From positions 1 through 64,000 of IMG/VR virus record IMGVR_UViG_3300047472_000237: a stretch of 64,000 bases of DNA; one strand, written 5' to 3'. The position numbers were made by a program, and so were the translations under genes. The notes below the pieces were generated by a model. It was not told the DNA's origin, searched no databases, and worked only from the letters and a program-made list of their open reading frames with translations. The DNA comes from a virus. Shown piece by piece: positions 8,434 through 50,894 of this stretch. Positions within the stretch are counted from its first letter, which is position 1, and every line of letters starts with the position of its first letter.

Positions 8434-8459
8434 ACCCGTTGGAGCAGAACGAACTAGGG

Positions 8460-8492
8460 AAGCCGCCGGCCTAACCGCCGCGCGGCTTTCTT
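8460..8492 (+). terminator. Terminator-like hairpin
   Basis: AAGCCGC (8460-8466) pairs with GCGGCTT (8482-8488) over a 15-nt GC-rich loop, followed by TCTT. Confidence 0.5.
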
Positions 8493-9203
8493 ACAGGACG
8501 GTCGTATTGTTACCGGACGTTGGTTGCCCGCTAGGGAAGGCGGTTCGCTGGGGTAGCCGCGCCGTAGGCCGCCCGCCCTACGCCTTCTGCCCTACGCTGG
8601 AGCTCGCCGTTGCTACGGCCTGGGGTACTGGCCGCCTGGGCGTTCCCGGCCCGCCTGGGGTACACCGCCGGGCGTGGAGCGGCATTCATTTTTTGCGTCA
8701 CAAAGTCGCGAGCACGCACCCGACTCCTTATTATCACCCGGCTTCCCTGCTCCAACGGGTCGTTTTGGCCTCCAAACGGGCGTTTTCAGGGTGTTTTCGG
8801 CCTATTTCAGCTGTAAGAACAGCTGGAATCAAGCCTTCTGCTGGAGACAAGGAGCCAAGGGGAGCTCGAGGAGGGGTTGATACAGGTGGAGGAGCTCTCC
8901 TCGAGGTCGGCCAGGTCGTTCACTCTCCCCTGCTCCATTCGACAGAGGAGCTCCACGCGATTCAACCAAGGGAGAGGCTTCACCTGGCTCTGGGCCTCCC
9001 TTGCTCCACTGAATCAACTATCGCTGGGCTCCTTCCCTCCATCGTACTGCTTCATTGAGTCCACTCAACTGCTCCACCTCGAGCTCCAACAGTCTCTAGG
9101 ATTCCTGGGGATTCACAGGGTTCACGCCATCGAGGTCCACCTGCCGCGCGGCATGCCGAGGTGAATCACTCCCTCCATTCGTTCACTCACTGGCTCCACC
9201 CTA

Positions 9204-9231
9204 GTGTCTGATAATGGGCATTACGTTACAC
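9204..9231 (+). other. 28-bp recombinase-type site (dif/res-like)
   Basis: Arms GTGTCTGATAA (9204-9214) and TTACGTTACAC (9221-9231) are imperfect inverted repeats around TGGGCA, the 11-6-11 layout of XerC/XerD sites. The left arm also contains TGTCTGATAAT (9205-9215), the half-site of Tn3-type resolvases. Function is not shown; no integrase lies in the window. Confidence 0.4.
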
Positions 9232-9520
9232 ACATAGTGGAGCGAGTGAGCCAGGTGGACTTCCGCGACTGCTTCCACCTCCACCCGCTTCACCAAACGT
9301 TTGATCTCCAATGAGCCGGGGAGGGGTTCCCGCACGGCGCAGAGGCGAGCGTCGTCCACTTTCTCAGCCCTCTCGCGTGTTTGTGAGTTGAAGGGCCTGC
9401 ATCTGGCCCAGGCGGGCCGGCCGCGATCGTGGAGAGGAGTGGTCGACTTCGGACACTCATCTCAACGAGTCTGGCTGAGTACGCGGAAGTTCAGTAGTTG
9501 GAAAGAGTTACTCAAAATAC

Positions 9521-9540
9521 TCTTCTTCTTAAGAAGAAGA
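9521..9540. repeat. Perfect 20-bp palindrome
   Basis: TCTTCTTCTT is followed directly by its reverse complement AAGAAGAAGA. It is AT-rich against a GC-rich background; a protein-binding or cruciform-forming site is possible. Confidence 0.6.
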
Positions 9541-9808
9541 AGAGAAGTATAGGAGTTCGGTGTTTAAGAACCCCTCCCCGTCCCCCTTCCTACCACATAC
9601 CCCCTACCCTCGCGAATTGCGGCTGCCCTCCTGGGCGAGAGCAACCGCCCCAAACCGTCTCGAAACTCTGCATTCACCAGGGATTGCGCCTGCTCAGCCA
9701 CCCCCGGTCGGCTCTGAGTCAAAACGGCCGGCTGAGTCAGATCCAGGCCGCGCCAGCCTCCACCAGGGTCAATTCCGCAGAAAATCGATCCCCCAGCGTG
9801 AAAGTGGC

Positions 9809-9836
9809 TTGCCTTTGCGTAGCAGCCGGAGAGAAT
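9809..9836 (+). promoter_or_regulatory. Promoter of the leaderless class
   Basis: TTGCCT (9809-9814), 16-nt spacer, GAGAAT (9831-9836), 7 nt to ATG 9844. Confidence 0.55.
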
Positions 9837-9843
9837 CAGGGCC

Positions 9844-10620: not shown

Positions 10621-10652
10621 AGCGACCGCGTGCCATTTCGCACGCGGTCGCT
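10621..10652 (+). terminator. Perfect 12-bp hairpin overlapping the next promoter
   Basis: AGCGACCGCGTG (10621-10632) pairs perfectly with CACGCGGTCGCT (10641-10652). A T-rich run follows only weakly (TATCATTT). The 3' arm touches the -10 of the small terminase gene, so the palindrome may be terminator, operator or both. Confidence 0.55.
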
Positions 10653-10658
10653 TATCAT
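10630..10658 (+). promoter_or_regulatory. Putative promoter of the small terminase gene
   Basis: GTGCCA (10630-10635), 17-nt spacer, TATCAT (10653-10658), 7 nt to ATG 10666. The -35 is weak and lies inside the hairpin. Confidence 0.45.
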
Positions 10659-10665
10659 TTGGGGC

Positions 10666-11289
10666 ATGGACGACGGCAGCGAGATCATCGAAGGCGAAGA
10701 CGAGGTCGACCAGACGACCGAGTTGGCCCTGCTCAAGCCGGCCCCGCTCCCTGCGGCCCTGAAGAACCGCCGCGCCAGGGTGCGGGCGGAAGACGTCACG
10801 GTCGAGCACGTCGAGCGTTTCCTTCAGCATCTCGCCACTTCTGGCCTGTATCATGAGTCGAGTCGCACCTGCGGCCTCGCCCCAAGCACGATCGCACGTC
10901 TCCGCAAGGAGGAGCCTGAGTTCCAGGCCATGTGCGACGAGTCCATGGACGAGTACAAGGACTCCCTCGTCAGGGCGGCCCACAGCCGCGCGGTCGAGGG
11001 GTGGGAAGAGCCGGTCTTCTCCTCCAAGCACGGCGGAGAGATCGGTACGATCCGGAAATTCGACTCGCGACTGCTGGAACTGCTTCTCAAGCGTCATATG
11101 CCAGAGTTTCGCGAAAAGTTCGAGGGCGAGCTCAAGGTCAGTGGTGGCGTGCTCGTGGCCCCGATCCCGGCGACGAACATGGCCGATTGGATGGCAAAGC
11201 ACCAAGAAGCGACGTGGGAAGCTCAGGCCAAGCCGGACTTGGTCGAGCCAGACGCGCCGGCGGAGCCTTCTGGGCCAGTTTCGCCCTGA
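10666..11289 (+). CDS. terS: Terminase small subunit (putative)
   Basis: 207 residues. The central part (about residues 45-125) has the small-terminase pattern: a helix-turn-helix with LAPSTIARLRKEEPEFQAMC, then a long helix with AAHSRAVEGWEEPVF, GGEIGTIRKFDSRLLELLLKRHMPEFREK. In this family the HTH recognises the packaging site and the helical core oligomerises into a ring that feeds the large subunit. The N terminus is acidic and the C terminus Pro/Ala-rich. The large subunit follows about 4 kb downstream rather than directly, with six small genes and a tRNA-like element between. ATG 10666 is set by the promoter. Confidence 0.8.
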   Translation: MDDGSEIIEGEDEVDQTTELALLKPAPLPAALKNRRARVRAEDVTVEHVERFLQHLATSGLYHESSRTCGLAPSTIARLRKEEPEFQAMCDESMDEYKDSLVRAAHSRAVEGWEEPVFSSKHGGEIGTIRKFDSRLLELLLKRHMPEFREKFEGELKVSGGVLVAPIPATNMADWMAKHQEATWEAQAKPDLVEPDAPAEPSGPVSP

Positions 11290-11296
11290 AATGGCC

Positions 11297-11325
11297 TTGC
11301 CTTTCGTTCACTGGGCGGGGAAACT
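11297..11325 (+). promoter_or_regulatory. Promoter of the leaderless class
   Basis: TTGCCT (11297-11302), 17-nt spacer, GAAACT (11320-11325), 6 nt to ATG 11332. Confidence 0.55.
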
Positions 11326-11331
11326 TCGCTC

Positions 11332-11844
11332 ATGGCCGACGAAATCACTCCCCCTGATGAGACGCCGGACGAAATTCCGGAGATCATCGAAGAAAAGCCG
11401 GTTCCGGCCCCCGAGACTCCTCCGTTCGCGGATGGACCGCCGATAACGGTCGACATGCTTGACGGCCACGAAGGCCCCATCATGCGGATGACCTTCATTG
11501 GCAAGGGCAGCGGTGCCATCGGCGTCGAGAGCGAGTTTCTCATCCCGCTGACCGGCGCGGCCCTGATGTCTGTCTTCAAAACGTCGATCCAGGGCCTCAT
11601 CGCGACGTCGCTGGAGGTTGGCACGAGCATGGGGGCCACTCCCGACCAGGTCATGACGGCCATCGGCCTCGACCGCTACAGCGAGCAGCCCGATGACGAG
11701 GGCGACGCGGAAGACGAAATCGACGGCGACGAAGTCGTTGATTTTGTCGACCCCGTAGAGGCTGGCGAGATCATCGACGGCGAAATCATCAGCGGCAACG
11801 ACGTGGACGAGACCGGCGGCCCCCAAACTGACCCAGGAGACTGA
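11332..11844 (+). CDS. Acidic hypothetical protein
   Basis: 170 residues. The ends are very acidic and Pro-rich (residues 1-35 and 120-170); the middle (MRMTFIGKGSGAIGVESEFLIPLTGAALMSV) is a compact hydrophobic domain. No family is recognised. The stop codon lies 4 nt before the tRNA-like element. Confidence 0.6.
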   Translation: MADEITPPDETPDEIPEIIEEKPVPAPETPPFADGPPITVDMLDGHEGPIMRMTFIGKGSGAIGVESEFLIPLTGAALMSVFKTSIQGLIATSLEVGTSMGATPDQVMTAIGLDRYSEQPDDEGDAEDEIDGDEVVDFVDPVEAGEIIDGEIISGNDVDETGGPQTDPGD

Positions 11845-11847
11845 TCT

Positions 11848-11934
11848 GCGGGGGTAGTTTAATCGAGAAAACGGCCTGACGGGCGGGCAATAGCCTACGT
11901 CTGGGTCTTGTGGGTTCAAGTCCCGCTCCCTGCG
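11848..11934 (+). tRNA. Aberrant tRNA-like element, anticodon not assignable
   Basis: The acceptor (GCGGGGG with TCCCTGC), D arm (GTTT/AAAC) and T arm (GTGGG TTCAAGT CCCGC) are clear. The 37 nt between D and T arms do not form a standard anticodon arm with U33. GGCCT (11873-11877) can pair with GGGTC (11903-11907), enclosing a further GACG/CGTC helix, giving an oversized arm. Possibilities are a type II tRNA with an odd anticodon arm, a tRNA carrying a small insertion, or a decayed tRNA. CCA is not encoded. Confidence 0.5.
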
Positions 11935-11951
11935 TTTTGTAAGGACACACA

Positions 11952-13502
11952 ATGGCGAAGAGAAACGTAATCACCCAGACTCAGCTGTTCGCGATGGACG
12001 CGGGCGGCGTCAAGGTCACCACCTTCGACGGCAGCGGCATCGTCGAGGCGACCATCACTCTCCCGCTCGAGAACATCGACCAGGTCGAGCTCGGGGAACA
12101 CGGGTGGGTGCTGCGTCAGGACGGCACGCACGTCGACGGCACCGTCGAGACGTTCCCGTACGAGCCGACCAAGCACACCGGCCGCACCTACGGCCCCGGC
12201 GAGTGGCCGCTCAAGGACGTCAAGCACCCGCTCGGACCGCCCGGCCCGTCGAACCACCAGGTCACGAACAGCGGCGGCGAGGACGGGGCACCCGGTGTGG
12301 TCGTTTTCTCCGCTCCGACGACGGGCAAGCTGGAGGACGAGCAGGCGCGGGGCCGCGTGCTGCGTCCCACGGCTCACAAGTGCGACATGATGTGTGGCTG
12401 CATCGACGGCGAGACCCCACCGGAAGTGCAGAACGCCGTGGCCGCCATCGCGGTCGATCTCTTGACCAACGTCGTGGCGAACGGAGACGGCACGTTTACG
12501 ACGTCCGGCTACCCGCTTCCGCCGCAGTACGCTGAGAGCGAGCGGCGTGCCGCCCTGGAGGAAGAGGAGATCGCCAACGACAAGCGCGTCAGCCTGACCC
12601 AGGCCCCGGTCGACCACGCCAAGGACGAGCCGGAGCTCCCGCCCGTTGGCTGGAGCTATGGCGGCGGCTTCGAGGAGACGGAAGCAGCCGCGCTCGCTGA
12701 CGCCGAGACCTTCCTGGGCGACCCGTACCGCCCGCGTGAGCCTGTCGACCTTGACGCCGTCCGCGTCGAGATCACCGACCATGATGGTGAGGCTGACCCG
12801 CGTGACGGTTCAGCTCATCTATCCCAGATCAAGGAGCCTGGCCTGCTGCTCGAGCGGATCAAGGCCGGCCTGGAGGCTGGGGAAGCCGACGGACAGACCG
12901 AGGACGTCCACGTCTTCCGCACCCACGGCCTGACCGAGACGGAAGTCGCGGCGTTCACTCAGATCCCCGGCGCGAAGTGGATCAAGTCCACCAACGTCGT
13001 GCTTGTGCCCGTGAAGAGCATGTCGGCCGGCATGGCCGAGCTCATGCAGCGCGGCCTGTCACACCGACGGTTCCAGGCACGCGGGCCGGTCACGGTCAAG
13101 GTGACCCCGCCCAACATCCAGGACATGCCCAAGTCCGCCATCGGCGACCGCCTCCGCGCGGCCCTCCGGGGCGAGACCACGAGCTCGACCAACCCCACGC
13201 CCACCCACGAGCACAGCACGCCCGAAGGCTTCGCCCAAGGCGTCCTCGACCTCGTCCGCAACCGGGGCGGCGACTACGGCACGCCGGCCCAGAACCACCA
13301 ACTGACCGCCGACCTGATGTCGGCGTTCCTGAGCCGCAAGGCCCGTCAGACTATCACGATCACAGCGGAGGACGTCTGTATGTTCAACATCCTCCAGAAG
13401 ATCTCGAGGCTTGCGTACACGAGCAAGGACGACAGCTACGCGGACATTGCCGGCTACGTGGAGAACGTGGCCATGCTTCGCCCTGATCAACGTGCACGCT
13501 GA
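11952..13502 (+). CDS. DUF6378-containing protein
   Basis: 516 residues. The C-terminal 90 (from about residue 425: GGDYGTPAQNH..., ITAEDVCMFNILQKISRLAY, DSYADIAGYVENVAML) match DUF6378, a small helical domain common in phages and of unknown role. The first 330 residues are a mosaic: a beta-rich N terminus, a short segment with HKCDMMCGC, and acidic helical stretches, with no family recognised. DUF6378 is usually found as a small free protein, so the long N-terminal extension is unusual. A TAAGGA sequence precedes the ATG. Confidence 0.7.
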   Translation: MAKRNVITQTQLFAMDAGGVKVTTFDGSGIVEATITLPLENIDQVELGEHGWVLRQDGTHVDGTVETFPYEPTKHTGRTYGPGEWPLKDVKHPLGPPGPSNHQVTNSGGEDGAPGVVVFSAPTTGKLEDEQARGRVLRPTAHKCDMMCGCIDGETPPEVQNAVAAIAVDLLTNVVANGDGTFTTSGYPLPPQYAESERRAALEEEEIANDKRVSLTQAPVDHAKDEPELPPVGWSYGGGFEETEAAALADAETFLGDPYRPREPVDLDAVRVEITDHDGEADPRDGSAHLSQIKEPGLLLERIKAGLEAGEADGQTEDVHVFRTHGLTETEVAAFTQIPGAKWIKSTNVVLVPVKSMSAGMAELMQRGLSHRRFQARGPVTVKVTPPNIQDMPKSAIGDRLRAALRGETTSSTNPTPTHEHSTPEGFAQGVLDLVRNRGGDYGTPAQNHQLTADLMSAFLSRKARQTITITAEDVCMFNILQKISRLAYTSKDDSYADIAGYVENVAMLRPDQRAR

Positions 13503-14749: not shown

Positions 14750-15041
14750 GGAATCCGAGAAACAAGCCAAAGCGGCTGCCCGCCGCCCTGTGCTCGAGCG
14801 GATGGTCGAAAGACTCCGCTCGAGCCGCCGCATTCGGGACAAGGGTCAACGCGAGCCGAATTGGTTGATGGAAGAGACAGATCTCCTTGCCCCGCTGGTG
14901 ATAAACCTCCAGAATAGAACCATGGGACTCACCCAGGCGGTCAACGCGGCCAAGCCGCACCTGCCCCGGCGGTCCATTTTCGCGATTCGGCAGCGGCTGA
15001 TTATCCTGAGGAAGAATGCCCAGCGTCCAAACAACAGCTAA
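14724..15041 (+). CDS. Basic helical protein, possible DNA binder
   Basis: 105 residues. Residues about 45-100 (NWLMEETDLLAPLVINLQNRTMGLTQAVNAAKPHLPRRS split over three helices) look like a Myb/SANT-like or HTH tri-helical domain. It overlaps both neighbours, the second being the large terminase, so it is co-translated with packaging genes. Confidence 0.6.
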   Translation: MTTPANPDKESEKQAKAAARRPVLERMVERLRSSRRIRDKGQREPNWLMEETDLLAPLVINLQNRTMGLTQAVNAAKPHLPRRSIFAIRQRLIILRKNAQRPNNS

Positions 15042-16542
15042 CGGCGTCGTGTGGAAAGAGCAGAACGGCTCGCTCATGCCGTTCATCGACGGCAAGAACG
15101 TGACGTGGGCTCCGCAGCCTGGCTCTCAGGCCGCCTTCCTCGAATGCCCCGCGTACGAAGTGCTCTACGAAGGGACGCGCGGCCCCGGCAAGACGGACGC
15201 CCTCCTCATGGACTTCGCGCAGCACGTCGGGCACGGCTACGGCCCCGACTGGCGCGGCGTCCTCTTTCGACAAACCTTCCCAGAACTCTCCGACGTCATC
15301 CAGAAGTCGAAGAAGTGGTTCAAGCTCATCTGGCCGAAGGCCGAGTTCAACGAAGCCAAGACCATGTGGACGTTCCCCGAGGGGGAGCAACTCATGTTCC
15401 GTCAGTTCCGTGTCGAAGACGACTATTGGTCGTATCACGGCCACGCGTACCCCTGGATCGCGTGGGAAGAATTGACGACGTGGGCCGACGCGAAGTGTTA
15501 CAAGGTGATGATGTCCTGTTCGCGTTCGACGCGGCCAGGCATGCCGCGTAAGTACCGCGCCACCACGAACCCGTACGGCGTCGGACACAACTGGGTCAAG
15601 ACCCGCTTCGGCCTTCCGTGCCCGCCCGGCAAGATCTTCGGCAAGCTGGTCATCGAGAAGGACGACCAGGGCAACACCCTGCCCGAACGCATGGCGATCA
15701 AGGGCCACATCAGCGAGAACAAGATTCTGTTGCACGCGGATCCGGGGTACATCCAACGTATCCGTGGTGCCGCGCGCAACGAGTCGGAGCTCGCGGCCTG
15801 GCTCGACGGCTCGTGGGACATCGTGGCCGGCGGCATGTTCGACGACGCGTGGCAGCCGAAGTACCACGTGCTGCCTGACCTGAACGCGAACATGATCCCG
15901 CGCGGCTGGAAGATCGTCCGCAGCTACGATCACGGCCAGTCGAAGCCGTTCTCGTATGGTCTGTGGGCCGTCAGCAACGGGGAGCCGATCACGCTGAGCT
16001 TCAGCGGCACCAACCGCAAGCAGATCATCGGCGCGATCAAGGGCGACGCCATCCGCATCTTCGAGTGGTACGGCTTCAACGGAGTGCCCAACGAGGGCAA
16101 ACGTCTCACTGCAATCGAGATCGCCCAGGGCATTCTCGAGCGAGAACGAGACTGGGGTCTGGTCGGCCGCGTCAGAATGGGCGTCGCCGACTCGGCCATC
16201 TTCACCGACTACGAACCCGGCCACTCGGTCGCCGGCGACATGGCTCGGATGGGAGTTCGATGGTATCCGGCTGACAAGGGCGCTGGCAGCCGCGCCCAAG
16301 GCTGGATGCAATGCCGAACGTGGCTCAAAAACTCTTGTCCGCCAGCTGGTGGTGTGCGAGAGTTCCCAGGGCTATTCGTGTGTGCCCGTTGCGACCAGTT
16401 CTTGCGGACGTTCCCGGTTCTGCCTCGCGACTCGAAGAATCTCGACGATGTCGATACGGACGCCGAAGACCACATCGGCGACGAGGTTCGATACTTCCTC
16501 CGCCGCGAGCGGATGGAAATGACCAAGTCCAAGTTCAAATGA
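15016..16542 (+). CDS. terL: Terminase large subunit
   Basis: 508 residues, normal family length. The ATPase domain shows a Walker A variant YEGTRGPGKTDALL (about residues 51-64) and Walker B YPWIAWEEL (about 140-148), with the glutamate in place. The C-terminal nuclease has VRSYDHGQ (first metal aspartate, about residue 305), GVADSAIF (about 395) and a terminal DDVDTDAEDHIGDEVRY. It translocates DNA into the prohead and makes the cuts. It overlaps the preceding basic protein by 26 nt, and its stop overlaps the HNH gene start. Confidence 0.92.
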   Translation: MPSVQTTANGVVWKEQNGSLMPFIDGKNVTWAPQPGSQAAFLECPAYEVLYEGTRGPGKTDALLMDFAQHVGHGYGPDWRGVLFRQTFPELSDVIQKSKKWFKLIWPKAEFNEAKTMWTFPEGEQLMFRQFRVEDDYWSYHGHAYPWIAWEELTTWADAKCYKVMMSCSRSTRPGMPRKYRATTNPYGVGHNWVKTRFGLPCPPGKIFGKLVIEKDDQGNTLPERMAIKGHISENKILLHADPGYIQRIRGAARNESELAAWLDGSWDIVAGGMFDDAWQPKYHVLPDLNANMIPRGWKIVRSYDHGQSKPFSYGLWAVSNGEPITLSFSGTNRKQIIGAIKGDAIRIFEWYGFNGVPNEGKRLTAIEIAQGILERERDWGLVGRVRMGVADSAIFTDYEPGHSVAGDMARMGVRWYPADKGAGSRAQGWMQCRTWLKNSCPPAGGVREFPGLFVCARCDQFLRTFPVLPRDSKNLDDVDTDAEDHIGDEVRYFLRRERMEMTKSKFK

Positions 16543-16985
16543 AGACGAAGATCTGCTCTCACGGAGAATGCCAGCTGGCCGGAAGGCACCAGCCGCTGGA
16601 GTCATTCTCCTTGCAGGCTCGCTCAAGAGACGGACGGAGCTCCAACTGCAAGGGGTGCGTCGCTCGAGAAAGAGACAAACCCGAGAACATTCGAAGGATG
16701 CTCTGGCTCATGGCCCGGCTCCGCGCGAAGAAGCGAGGAGTCCCGTTCTCCATCAAGGTTGATGAGATTGTGATCCCCGAGAGATGCCCGGCGCTGGGAA
16801 TCAAGCTCAGCCGGGGACGCCGCTCGCCGATGGGTCACTCCCCGTCGCTCGACCGCATTGTGCCTTCCCTGGGCTACGTCACAGGGAACATCATCGTGGT
16901 GAGCATGAAGGCCAACCTGATCAAGCAGGATGCGAACCCGGCGGAACTCATGAGAGTCGCGAAGTTCTACGCCAAGCTGAAATGA
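16539..16985 (+). CDS. HNH/endonuclease VII-like protein
   Basis: 148 residues. The N terminus has cysteines spaced as a zinc knuckle (C-HGEC ... SNCKGC), and the C-terminal half has the pattern CPALGIKL ... SLDRIVPSLGYVTGNIIVVS ... AN.IK typical of phage His-Me finger (HNH) proteins. These are often free-standing homing endonucleases. It sits between large terminase and portal, a frequent insertion point, with ATGA overlaps that keep it in the operon. Confidence 0.75.
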   Translation: MKTKICSHGECQLAGRHQPLESFSLQARSRDGRSSNCKGCVARERDKPENIRRMLWLMARLRAKKRGVPFSIKVDEIVIPERCPALGIKLSRGRRSPMGHSPSLDRIVPSLGYVTGNIIVVSMKANLIKQDANPAELMRVAKFYAKLK

Positions 16986-17023
16986 TACAGTCGCCGGTGA
17001 AGACCGGCACTATCATTTACGCT

Positions 17024-18532
17024 ATGGCAAAAGACAAGGGACCAGCGACAACGTCGGCCGCGTACGAAGCGATGCTGCCGATGTGGACAAAGATCCAGAC
17101 GCTCCTGGATGGCACTGACTCCATGCGCGCGGCGGGCACGGAGTACCTGCCGCAGCATCCGGAGGAGAGTGACGACGCATACAGCGAACGTCTCGCGAAG
17201 GCCACGCTCCTCAACATGCTGAAGATGACCCTCGACTCGTGGGTCGGCAAGCCGTTCAGCGCTCCCATCAAGTTCGGCGATGACATCCCGAAGGAGCTCA
17301 TCGACCTCACGGCCAACATCGACCTCCAGGGCAACGATCTCAACGTCTTTGGTCGCAACTGGTTCCGTGACGGCGTCGGCAAGGCGTTCAGTCACGTGCT
17401 GGTCGAGTTTCCCCGGCCGCAGCCGCGTGCTGACGGGCAGCCCCGCACGCTCGAGGACGACCGCCGCGACAAGCTGCGTCCGTACTGGGTGCACATCCGG
17501 CCGGAGAACGTCCTGTTCGCCAGCCGCGAGTTTCGCAATGGTGTCGAGCACGTGACCAGCGTCCGCATCCTCGAGCACCACACGACCCTGCAAGGCTTCG
17601 AGGAAGTCACCGTCTGCCGCATCCGCGAGATCACCCCCGGCTACGTCAAGATCTACGAAGAGATCAAGGACAAGAAGACGAAGAAGGTGGTCTGGAAGGT
17701 GGTCGACGAGTACCCGTACGACCTGCCGTACATCCCGCTCGTGACGTTCTACGCTGACCGCGAGGACTTCATGCGGGGCACCCCGCCGCTCAACGACCTG
17801 GCCGACCTGAACGTGTCCCACTGGCAGGGCCGCGCCGACCAGACCAGCGTGCTGACCGTCGCCCGCTTCCCGATCCTCGCCGTCAGCGGCGCGGTCACGG
17901 ACGACAAGATGGTCGTCGGCCCCAACGCGTGGCTTCACTGTCCCGACGCGGCCGGCCGGTTCTACTACGTCGAGCACTCCGGCAAGGCGATCAACGCCGG
18001 CCGCACCGACCTCATGGACCTCGAGGAGACCATGGCCGAGTACGGGGCGACCTTCCTCAAGAAGCGTCCCGGCGGTGCCAGCGCGACCGCTCGTGCCCTC
18101 GACACGGCGGAGACGACCTCGCCGCTCCAGGACATGGCGATCCGCTTCCAGTCGGCCCTGGCCCGCGCCATGCAGTTCACCGCTGACTGGCTCAAGATCA
18201 AGGCGGAAGTCGGCACGTGGTCGGTCAACCTCGACTTCGGCATCGACGCGTCGGATGCTCCCCACCTCACGAGCCTCAGCGAGGCCCGCAAGAACAAGGA
18301 CATCAGCCGGACGCGTTACACCAAGGAGCTCCAACGTATGGGAGTTCTGGACGAGGACTACGACTCGGAAGCCGACCTCAAGCTGCTGGATGCGGAAGCC
18401 GCCAAGGCCCTGGTCGAGCAGAAGGCTCAGCTGGAGCTCCAGGCGTCCATGGCACCCAAGCCGGCCCCCGGCGCGCCGGGCGACCCGCCGCAGCCTGGGC
18501 CGAAGCCGCCCGTGGAAAAGAAATCCGAGTGA
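17024..18532 (+). CDS. Portal protein (DUF4055-like)
   Basis: 502 residues. The order after the terminase, the length and motifs such as DSWVGKPFSAPI, YWVHIRPENVLFA, DLPYIPLVTFYADR and DLADLNVSHWQGRADQ fit the DUF4055 portal family, the dodecameric ring at the capsid vertex through which DNA passes. The C-terminal about 40 residues are Pro/Ala/Lys-rich and probably disordered. ATG 17024 follows TATCAT by 7 nt; an in-frame ATG at 16982 overlapping the HNH stop is the alternative and would add 14 residues. Confidence 0.85.
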   Translation: MAKDKGPATTSAAYEAMLPMWTKIQTLLDGTDSMRAAGTEYLPQHPEESDDAYSERLAKATLLNMLKMTLDSWVGKPFSAPIKFGDDIPKELIDLTANIDLQGNDLNVFGRNWFRDGVGKAFSHVLVEFPRPQPRADGQPRTLEDDRRDKLRPYWVHIRPENVLFASREFRNGVEHVTSVRILEHHTTLQGFEEVTVCRIREITPGYVKIYEEIKDKKTKKVVWKVVDEYPYDLPYIPLVTFYADREDFMRGTPPLNDLADLNVSHWQGRADQTSVLTVARFPILAVSGAVTDDKMVVGPNAWLHCPDAAGRFYYVEHSGKAINAGRTDLMDLEETMAEYGATFLKKRPGGASATARALDTAETTSPLQDMAIRFQSALARAMQFTADWLKIKAEVGTWSVNLDFGIDASDAPHLTSLSEARKNKDISRTRYTKELQRMGVLDEDYDSEADLKLLDAEAAKALVEQKAQLELQASMAPKPAPGAPGDPPQPGPKPPVEKKSE

Positions 18533-50816: not shown

Positions 50817-50891
50817 TGACGCGATGGTCCAGATGGTAGGGCCGTGGGCTCATAACCCGCTGCATCGAAGGTTCGACTCCTTCCGCGTCAG
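50817..50891 (+). tRNA. tRNA-Met (anticodon CAT)
   Basis: Acceptor TGACGCG/CGCGTCA, D arm GTCC/GGGC, anticodon stem GTGGG/CCCGC with loop CTCATAA (U33 present, anticodon CAT) and T arm GAAGG TTCGACT CCTTC all pair. No CCA is encoded. CAT can mean elongator Met, initiator Met or Ile (if lysidine-modified); the weak acceptor first pair T-A argues against a standard initiator. Confidence 0.9.
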
Positions 50892-50894
50892 CTT

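Follow-up and report, generated by a model that had tools for sequence, protein, structure and literature searches.

A tRNA body with a rod-like hairpin in place of the anticodon arm among phage late genes: possibly a non-decoding RNA

Does a phage gene that has the body of a tRNA and no usable anticodon arm encode a tRNA at all, and what could its RNA do instead? The question is raised by an element at positions 11848-11934 (plus strand) of the window analyzed here, which is the stretch of bases 1-64000 of an 82,787-base IMG/VR virus record. A sequence-only reading had described the element as tRNA-like and had offered a tRNA mimic, an intron-bearing tRNA and a processing or stability element as explanations. 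We confirmed the coordinates and found the tRNA body intact except for the anticodon arm. That reading as a whole was partly supported, the mimic being the best of its three options in view of the intact body, the missing decoding arm and comparable objects in other phages.

The virus encodes a large terminase subunit that is ~57-60% identical to TerL of Pseudomonas and Bordetella phages of the Mesyanzhinovviridae. An integrase at 72801-73292 of the record suggests a temperate phage. Together this suggests a Mesyanzhinovviridae-like temperate phage. The gene order around the element is TerS, 170-aa gene, element, DUF6378 gene, small genes, TerL and portal:

10630..11289, plus strand: terminase small subunit (TerS; phrog_4044, E 7.5e-34)
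11332..11844, plus strand: 170-aa gene upstream of the element, without PHROG or Pfam match
11940..11945, plus strand: Shine-Dalgarno-like TAAGGA for the downstream gene (by eye)
11952..13502, plus strand: 516-aa gene downstream of the element, DUF6378 domain near the C terminus (PF19905, E 3.7e-11)
15016..16542, plus strand: terminase large subunit (TerL), which places the phage near Mesyanzhinovviridae
16784..18532: portal gene

Both flanking genes are located on the same strand. The TGA of the 170-aa gene occupies 11842-11844, the element begins 3 nt later, TAAGGA lies directly behind it, and 17 nt separate its end from the ATG at 11952. The tight fit noted earlier was thus confirmed, with a correction of the spacing from 4 and 18 nt. 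The element is single-copy in the 82,787-base record, and ARAGORN called just one further tRNA in the window, a tRNA-Met at 50817-50892. Upstream of the late genes, the ~1.4-kb stretch 8434-9843 of the window contained no ORFs other than mutually overlapping ones whose frames conflict, and it may be non-coding.

The element itself is composed as follows, with pairing probabilities in brackets:

11848..11854, plus strand: acceptor stem, 5' strand GCGGGGG (0.59-1.0)
11857..11872, plus strand: D arm GTTT-AATCGAGA-AAAC, stem 4/4, loop without G18-G19 (0.78-0.81)
11873..11907, plus strand: extended hairpin (rod) replacing the anticodon arm, 13 pairs (0.68-0.97)
11910..11926, plus strand: T arm GTGGG-TTCAAGT-CCCGC, stem 5/5 (0.96-0.97)
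11927..11934, plus strand: acceptor stem, 3' strand TCCCTGC, and position 73 (G), followed by TTT, with no encoded CCA

The two acceptor strands pair at 7/7 positions, including two G-U pairs (3-70 and 7-66), and T8 and A9 connect them to the D stem. A 7-bp acceptor, a 5-bp T stem and a TTCRA T loop are the features of a canonical elongator tRNA. The D arm departs in part from the standard, since its complete stem closes a loop lacking the G18-G19 pair; the earlier statement that acceptor, D and T arms are good holds for the stems (7/7, 4/4, 5/5) but not for this loop. A canonical anticodon arm with a 5-bp stem and a 7-nt loop containing U33 was absent. Within the 37 nt between D and T arm (11873-11909) three candidate 7-nt loops on stems of at least 4 bp were found, none of them with U33, which bears out the claim that no normal anticodon loop can form there.

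The extended helix that had been proposed instead was recovered in the minimum free energy structure (MFE) of the element, a cloverleaf of -36.1 kcal/mol in which a 13-pair hairpin replaces the anticodon arm. The rod consists of GGCCU/GGGUC, a U bulge, GACG/CGUC, a GGC//A internal loop, GGGC/GCCU and an AAUA loop. The MFE of the whole element was only modestly special (z -2.06; 10/200 shuffles equally good). The Rfam tRNA model matched with 32.5 bits (gathering 29; E 4e-5) in a permissive run on 401 bases and skipped the anticodon arm, so that the covariance search suggested as a check yielded no standard anticodon; the element was not among the matches of a fast whole-window Rfam run at gathering thresholds. 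Units of acceptor plus T arm (acceptor 7/7 with at least five Watson-Crick pairs) occurred once in the real window and not at all in 100 dinucleotide-shuffled windows.

Comparable objects were found in other phages. The acceptor-plus-T-arm scan covered 89 sequences (the window, L156 and 87 TerL-related loci; 1,038,359 bases) and gave four matches, namely the element, one unit in L128, and two units of ordinary tRNA length in L098 and L150. An analogous object was thus present in 1/87 TerL-related loci. This unit (L128:6576-6695; IMG/VR 3300038441_001522) is 120 nt long, follows directly after TerL and has the D arm TAGTTTAACCGGCGAGAAAAC. It shares with the element the TAGTTTAA..GAAAAC style of D arm, a full body and a long middle without U33 arm, but its 68-nt middle is unrelated in sequence, its 3' end is ACCA and its site after TerL is a different one. 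Right behind it, at L128:6701-6775, a second tRNA-like unit was seen by eye, with the stem GCAGC/GCTGC, the loop GGGACGC, thus a 5-bp anticodon stem without U33, and one acceptor mismatch; its MFE structure is not a cloverleaf.

Wider scans joined a D arm to a T arm, and a match passed if the T stem was 5/5 and the acceptor had at least 6/7 pairs. The first pattern, a TAGTTTAA..AAAC D arm with 46-76 nt to the T arm, was applied to 205 viral loci. Among the matches listed, 48/119 viral ones passed (35 with a 7/7 acceptor), as did 17/121 from GTDB genome contigs (16 with 7/7) and 79/126 viral ones with a TAGCTCAA..GAGC D arm; these sets hold repeats (40, 16 and 75 distinct middles, respectively), some type II tRNAs of the ordinary kind and, probably, a few tandem-tRNA artefacts (L286, L467). 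Sorted by middle, again among the matches listed, a U33 arm was present in canonical position in 9 of the 48, in a shifted position in 17 and not at all in 22; the corresponding figures were 1, 7 and 9 for the set of 17 and 8, 31 and 40 for the set of 79. The shifted class is inflated by chance U33 arms and the canonical class by type II tRNAs. A rod-type unit was also observed outside the viral collection: in the genome contig L450 (match from 5925) the middle of a tRNA body is, by eye, a long near-perfect hairpin, CCTCTTTTTTTAACACA / TGTGTTAAAAAAAGAGG.

One of the viral units is conserved. L296 matched 48 phage records at E 1e-5, all of them Streptomyces phages, including Yaboi, Karimac and StarPlatinum. 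In the listed records the site carries no annotated feature, except in Sushi23, where it is labelled tRNA-Thr. The Yaboi copy lies at 86142-86255 (L481:2501-2614) within a tRNA array. An alignment of 13 sequences, from which the Tomas phage (L492) was omitted as its acceptor was not detected by the scan, showed that the body and the inner rod are kept while the rod tip varies freely. All cells (100%) of a 23-pair structure pair, 7/23 pairs change on both sides, double-changed cells number 27 versus 9.5 expected and 0/500 shuffles reached the covariation score, in a test that favors this structure because it derives partly from the prediction of the same alignment. Two of the seven covarying pairs are located in the rod (2/8 rod pairs). 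Judged from this comparison of sequences, selection acts on the fold of at least one tRNA-like RNA of phages that has a rod for an anticodon arm.

This RNA resembles the element in its tRNA acceptor, the identical GTTT/AAAC D stem, the T arm and an irregular rod that takes the place of the anticodon arm without any U33 arm. It differs in its site within a tRNA array, in an invariant A-G mismatch as first acceptor pair and in a conserved rod core (GAAATGC..TGYCGAA ... AGTAGRTAWCAGAGTARCAG), the GAA/AGTA strand pair of which we take to resemble a loop E motif. The element at 11848-11934 has the architecture of a tRNA body with a rod and no U33 arm; the rod core is absent from it.

We favor, at somewhat less than even confidence, the reading that 11848-11934 is a gene for a non-decoding tRNA-like RNA that is matured like a tRNA and probably serves as a tRNA-shaped decoy. 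The element would be transcribed together with the surrounding late genes, and host tRNA maturation would excise the RNA, with RNase P cutting its 5' end and the 3' end being trimmed and given a CCA. The acceptor/T half is what RNase P, the enzymes of 3' processing and the CCA-adding enzyme mainly recognize, and for this reason the element should leave the late transcript and become stable. The predicted product is a stable RNA that combines an irregular 13-pair rod with a tRNA's D arm and acceptor/T half. Lacking an anticodon arm it cannot decode, and because codons cannot be read it would most likely act in trans on tRNA-body-binding proteins, serving them as a ligand or decoy of tRNA shape. 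Candidate targets are tRNA-targeting defence nucleases or toxins, aminoacyl-tRNA synthetases and modification or maturation enzymes. The missing homologue, the modest fold score, the D loop without G18-G19, the lack of CCA and the type II spacing were counted against a non-decoding RNA. With regard to aminoacylation, the acceptor contains G3-U70, with G at position 73, and G3-U70 is also present in 6/65 analogues. This is the classical anticodon-independent identity pair for alanine (AlaRS), and we regard it as a lead only.

Searches for homologues of this particular copy bear on the alternative that it is a phage tRNA pseudogene, probably derived from a type II tRNA, which is decaying, has lost its anticodon arm and has no function. 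The 1301-base neighbourhood had no match in 50,697 phage records, the element alone gave short partial matches to phages at E ~0.3 or more and none covering 80%, the exact 18-base D arm had no match in IMG/VR, and the neighbouring 516-aa and 170-aa proteins had none in the phage collection. Searches with the 516-aa protein and with TerL alone found no relative in IMG/VR, whereas the TerL alignment did work and found 80 loci. The nearest syntenic relative, L076, shares 45% identity in TerS, 62% in the DUF6378 domain and 67% in the portal, and ARAGORN, the acceptor-plus-T-arm scan and cmscan detected no tRNA-like element in it. The element is therefore accessory, and without a homologue no covariation is available for this copy. 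Phage tRNA genes are often accessory too, so these results fit a pseudogene, as do the already atypical D loop and the 37-nt spacing, which suits a tRNA of type II (Ser/Leu/Tyr type). Its decay would have been uneven, though, with 16/16 body pairs intact (acceptor 7, D 4, T 5) and the decoding arm gone. Furthermore, the 37-nt middle alone folds at -16.9 kcal/mol (z -2.44), better than 198/200 shuffles and equalled by the other two. We consider a pseudogene unlikely but still deserving of weight: this one copy may have decayed from a tRNA, and the interest lies in the class.

Rather improbable is a role in cis, in which cuts by RNase P and a 3' endonuclease separate the flanking mRNAs or protect a 3' end and the RNA is a by-product. 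The close fit between stop codon, TAAGGA and ATG would suit such punctuation. So would the absence of a promoter-like site in 11100-12200, where the single terminator-like site was no more than shuffles give. On the other hand, L076 keeps the gene with the DUF6378 domain without such an element, and the analogues are located in tRNA arrays or after TerL and thus have no fixed gene link.

A decoding type II tRNA-Pro(CGG), which would have A33, an anticodon stem of 4 bp and a long variable arm, is less probable still. It corresponds to the call of ARAGORN, which, run as a check, did name an anticodon (cgg), though only by means of the 4-bp stem and A33 instead of U33. Although the D-to-T spacing fits type II and a type II fold is available, the cloverleaf with the ARAGORN arm has -23.5 kcal/mol and reaches -28.1 kcal/mol with the best variable arm, so that the rod is ~8 kcal/mol better. 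The four anticodon-stem pairs of the ARAGORN fold have a probability of 0.0003, the Rfam alignment omits the arm, and a normal anticodon arm next to a long variable arm, as in type II tRNAs, was not found. Moreover, tRNA-Pro is not a type II tRNA, and G1-C72 and G73 are not its acceptor signals. Gene-finder names of such phage genes can be wrong, as with Pro here and Thr in Sushi23.

The intron-bearing tRNA of the sequence-only reading fared no better, and we regard it as very improbable that the anticodon arm contains a short insertion and regains a normal anticodon once this has been cut from the transcript. Many viral tRNA genes do carry 25-55-nt insertions whose removal restores canonical arms, and the excision test works, since it recovered such arms in many of them. 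Among the matches listed, a single excision restored a canonical arm in 13/40 and 33/75 viral and in 9/16 genome distinct middles, of which about 5, 4 and 1 are long variable arms or tandem tRNAs; 0.015-0.019 are expected per shuffled middle. Under the strict rule (5/5 pairs, U33, purine 37, variable region of 4-5) no single excision in the 37-nt middle gave a canonical arm, while 111/5000 shuffled middles gave one. Relaxed rules allowed three excisions, which is at chance level, as 1720/5000 shuffled middles (34%) also have one. The best of them removes 16 nt and yields GCCTG-CTACGTC-TGGGT, with three of five pairs G-U and two Watson-Crick, a 3-nt variable region and U37. Matches to the tRNA repair and ligase families RtcB and RNA_ligase were absent from the 82.8-kb record. 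A group I intron was rejected on size only, the excess length over a type I tRNA being ~15 nt.

The inserted tRNA genes are of two kinds. In 24 distinct middles, from L209, L256, L309, L335, L516, L530, L577, L582, L601, L603 and others, an insertion of 39-49 nt lies between anticodon-stem positions 28 and 29. It forms an extra hairpin (TATCTT/AAGATA type, covarying), followed by the motif NCAGCAR and often by a normal loop (CTGCTAA, CTGGTAA, CTTGTAA, ATGTTAA). Across the insertion, pairs 27-43 and 28-42 of the outer stem were kept in 21/24 as compared with a mean of 8.2 and a maximum of 16 in 1000 shuffles, where the real rows, but not the shuffles, took the better of two variable-region lengths. 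These insertions may represent short tRNA introns of a new kind, or the genes may encode a five-arm tRNA. Their motif (ACAGCAA there) is absent from 11873-11909 of the window. The second kind, found in L501, L503, L508, L511, L532, L546, L550, L566 and L607, has 36-51-nt insertions inside the anticodon loop, bordered by a 5/5 anticodon stem, and removal restores e.g. CTGTTAA. These inserts are too short for group I introns, and by eye several contain a hairpin resembling a T arm and are closed by an inverted repeat.

That mere chance hairpins resemble a tRNA here can hardly be credited, since the modest z of the whole element is set against 0/100 shuffled windows with acceptor plus T arm, the Rfam E of 4e-5 in 401 bases and the precise fit between two genes.

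Other known RNAs and sites did not account for the element either. No tmRNA model matched in 11700-12100 at E up to 10, nor did ARAGORN report one there. A tRNA-derived integration site is not indicated, with the integrase ~61 kb off on the linear record. The engineered tRNA scaffold, in which a foreign RNA is mounted on a tRNA body where the anticodon arm would be, is man-made, whereas the element is natural. Irregular tRNAs and allo-tRNAs from soil metatranscriptomes, some of them unusable in E. coli translation, are covered in the available part of a review (PMC7609411). According to that part, allo-tRNA(UAU) and irregular tRNAs (Mukai et al. 2017, as described there) have 12-bp acceptor branches (8/4 or 9/3). 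They resemble the element in tRNA shape, doubtful decoding and possible extra stems, but they keep an anticodon and the 12-bp branch, whereas the element has a 7/5 branch and no anticodon (PMC7609411, same part). The word phage does not occur in the available text of this review. In the part of the open-licence PMC literature that was covered, we found reports neither of phage tRNA-like RNAs without anticodon arm nor of phage tRNA genes interrupted by short insertions.

Two explanations compete for the presence of tRNA genes in phages, namely that they serve codon supply and that they help to evade defences which cleave tRNAs (PMC10264068, in part); the same source reports phage tRNAs that resist such defences through anticodon-loop changes. 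The nuclease Cas12a3 has been reported to cleave tRNA tails (PMC12851939, in part). A tRNA body without the cleaved loop would be a plausible next step in this conflict. Non-decoding tRNA-shaped RNAs separate the two ideas: they cannot supply codons and, if made and kept, must serve something else. As a wider proposal, put forward more tentatively than our reading of the single locus, phages may possess a large class of RNAs, almost without annotation, that are built on the chassis of a tRNA body and have the decoding arm replaced or interrupted. The element at 11848-11934 would be a member of the rod type, relying on the system that matures and stabilizes tRNAs and working as a non-coding RNA, e.g. 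as a decoy against tRNA-targeting defences. Yaboi and its kin provide a cultured, conserved example that makes the question testable now in laboratory strains of Streptomyces, which are harmless.

As a minor observation, many viral contigs (within L159-L274) contained a tRNA with a long variable arm and the loop NTTATAN (anticodon TAT), often with an ACCA end. They share this anticodon resemblance with the allo-tRNA(UAU) of soil metagenomes, as outlined in the part of PMC7609411 mentioned above.
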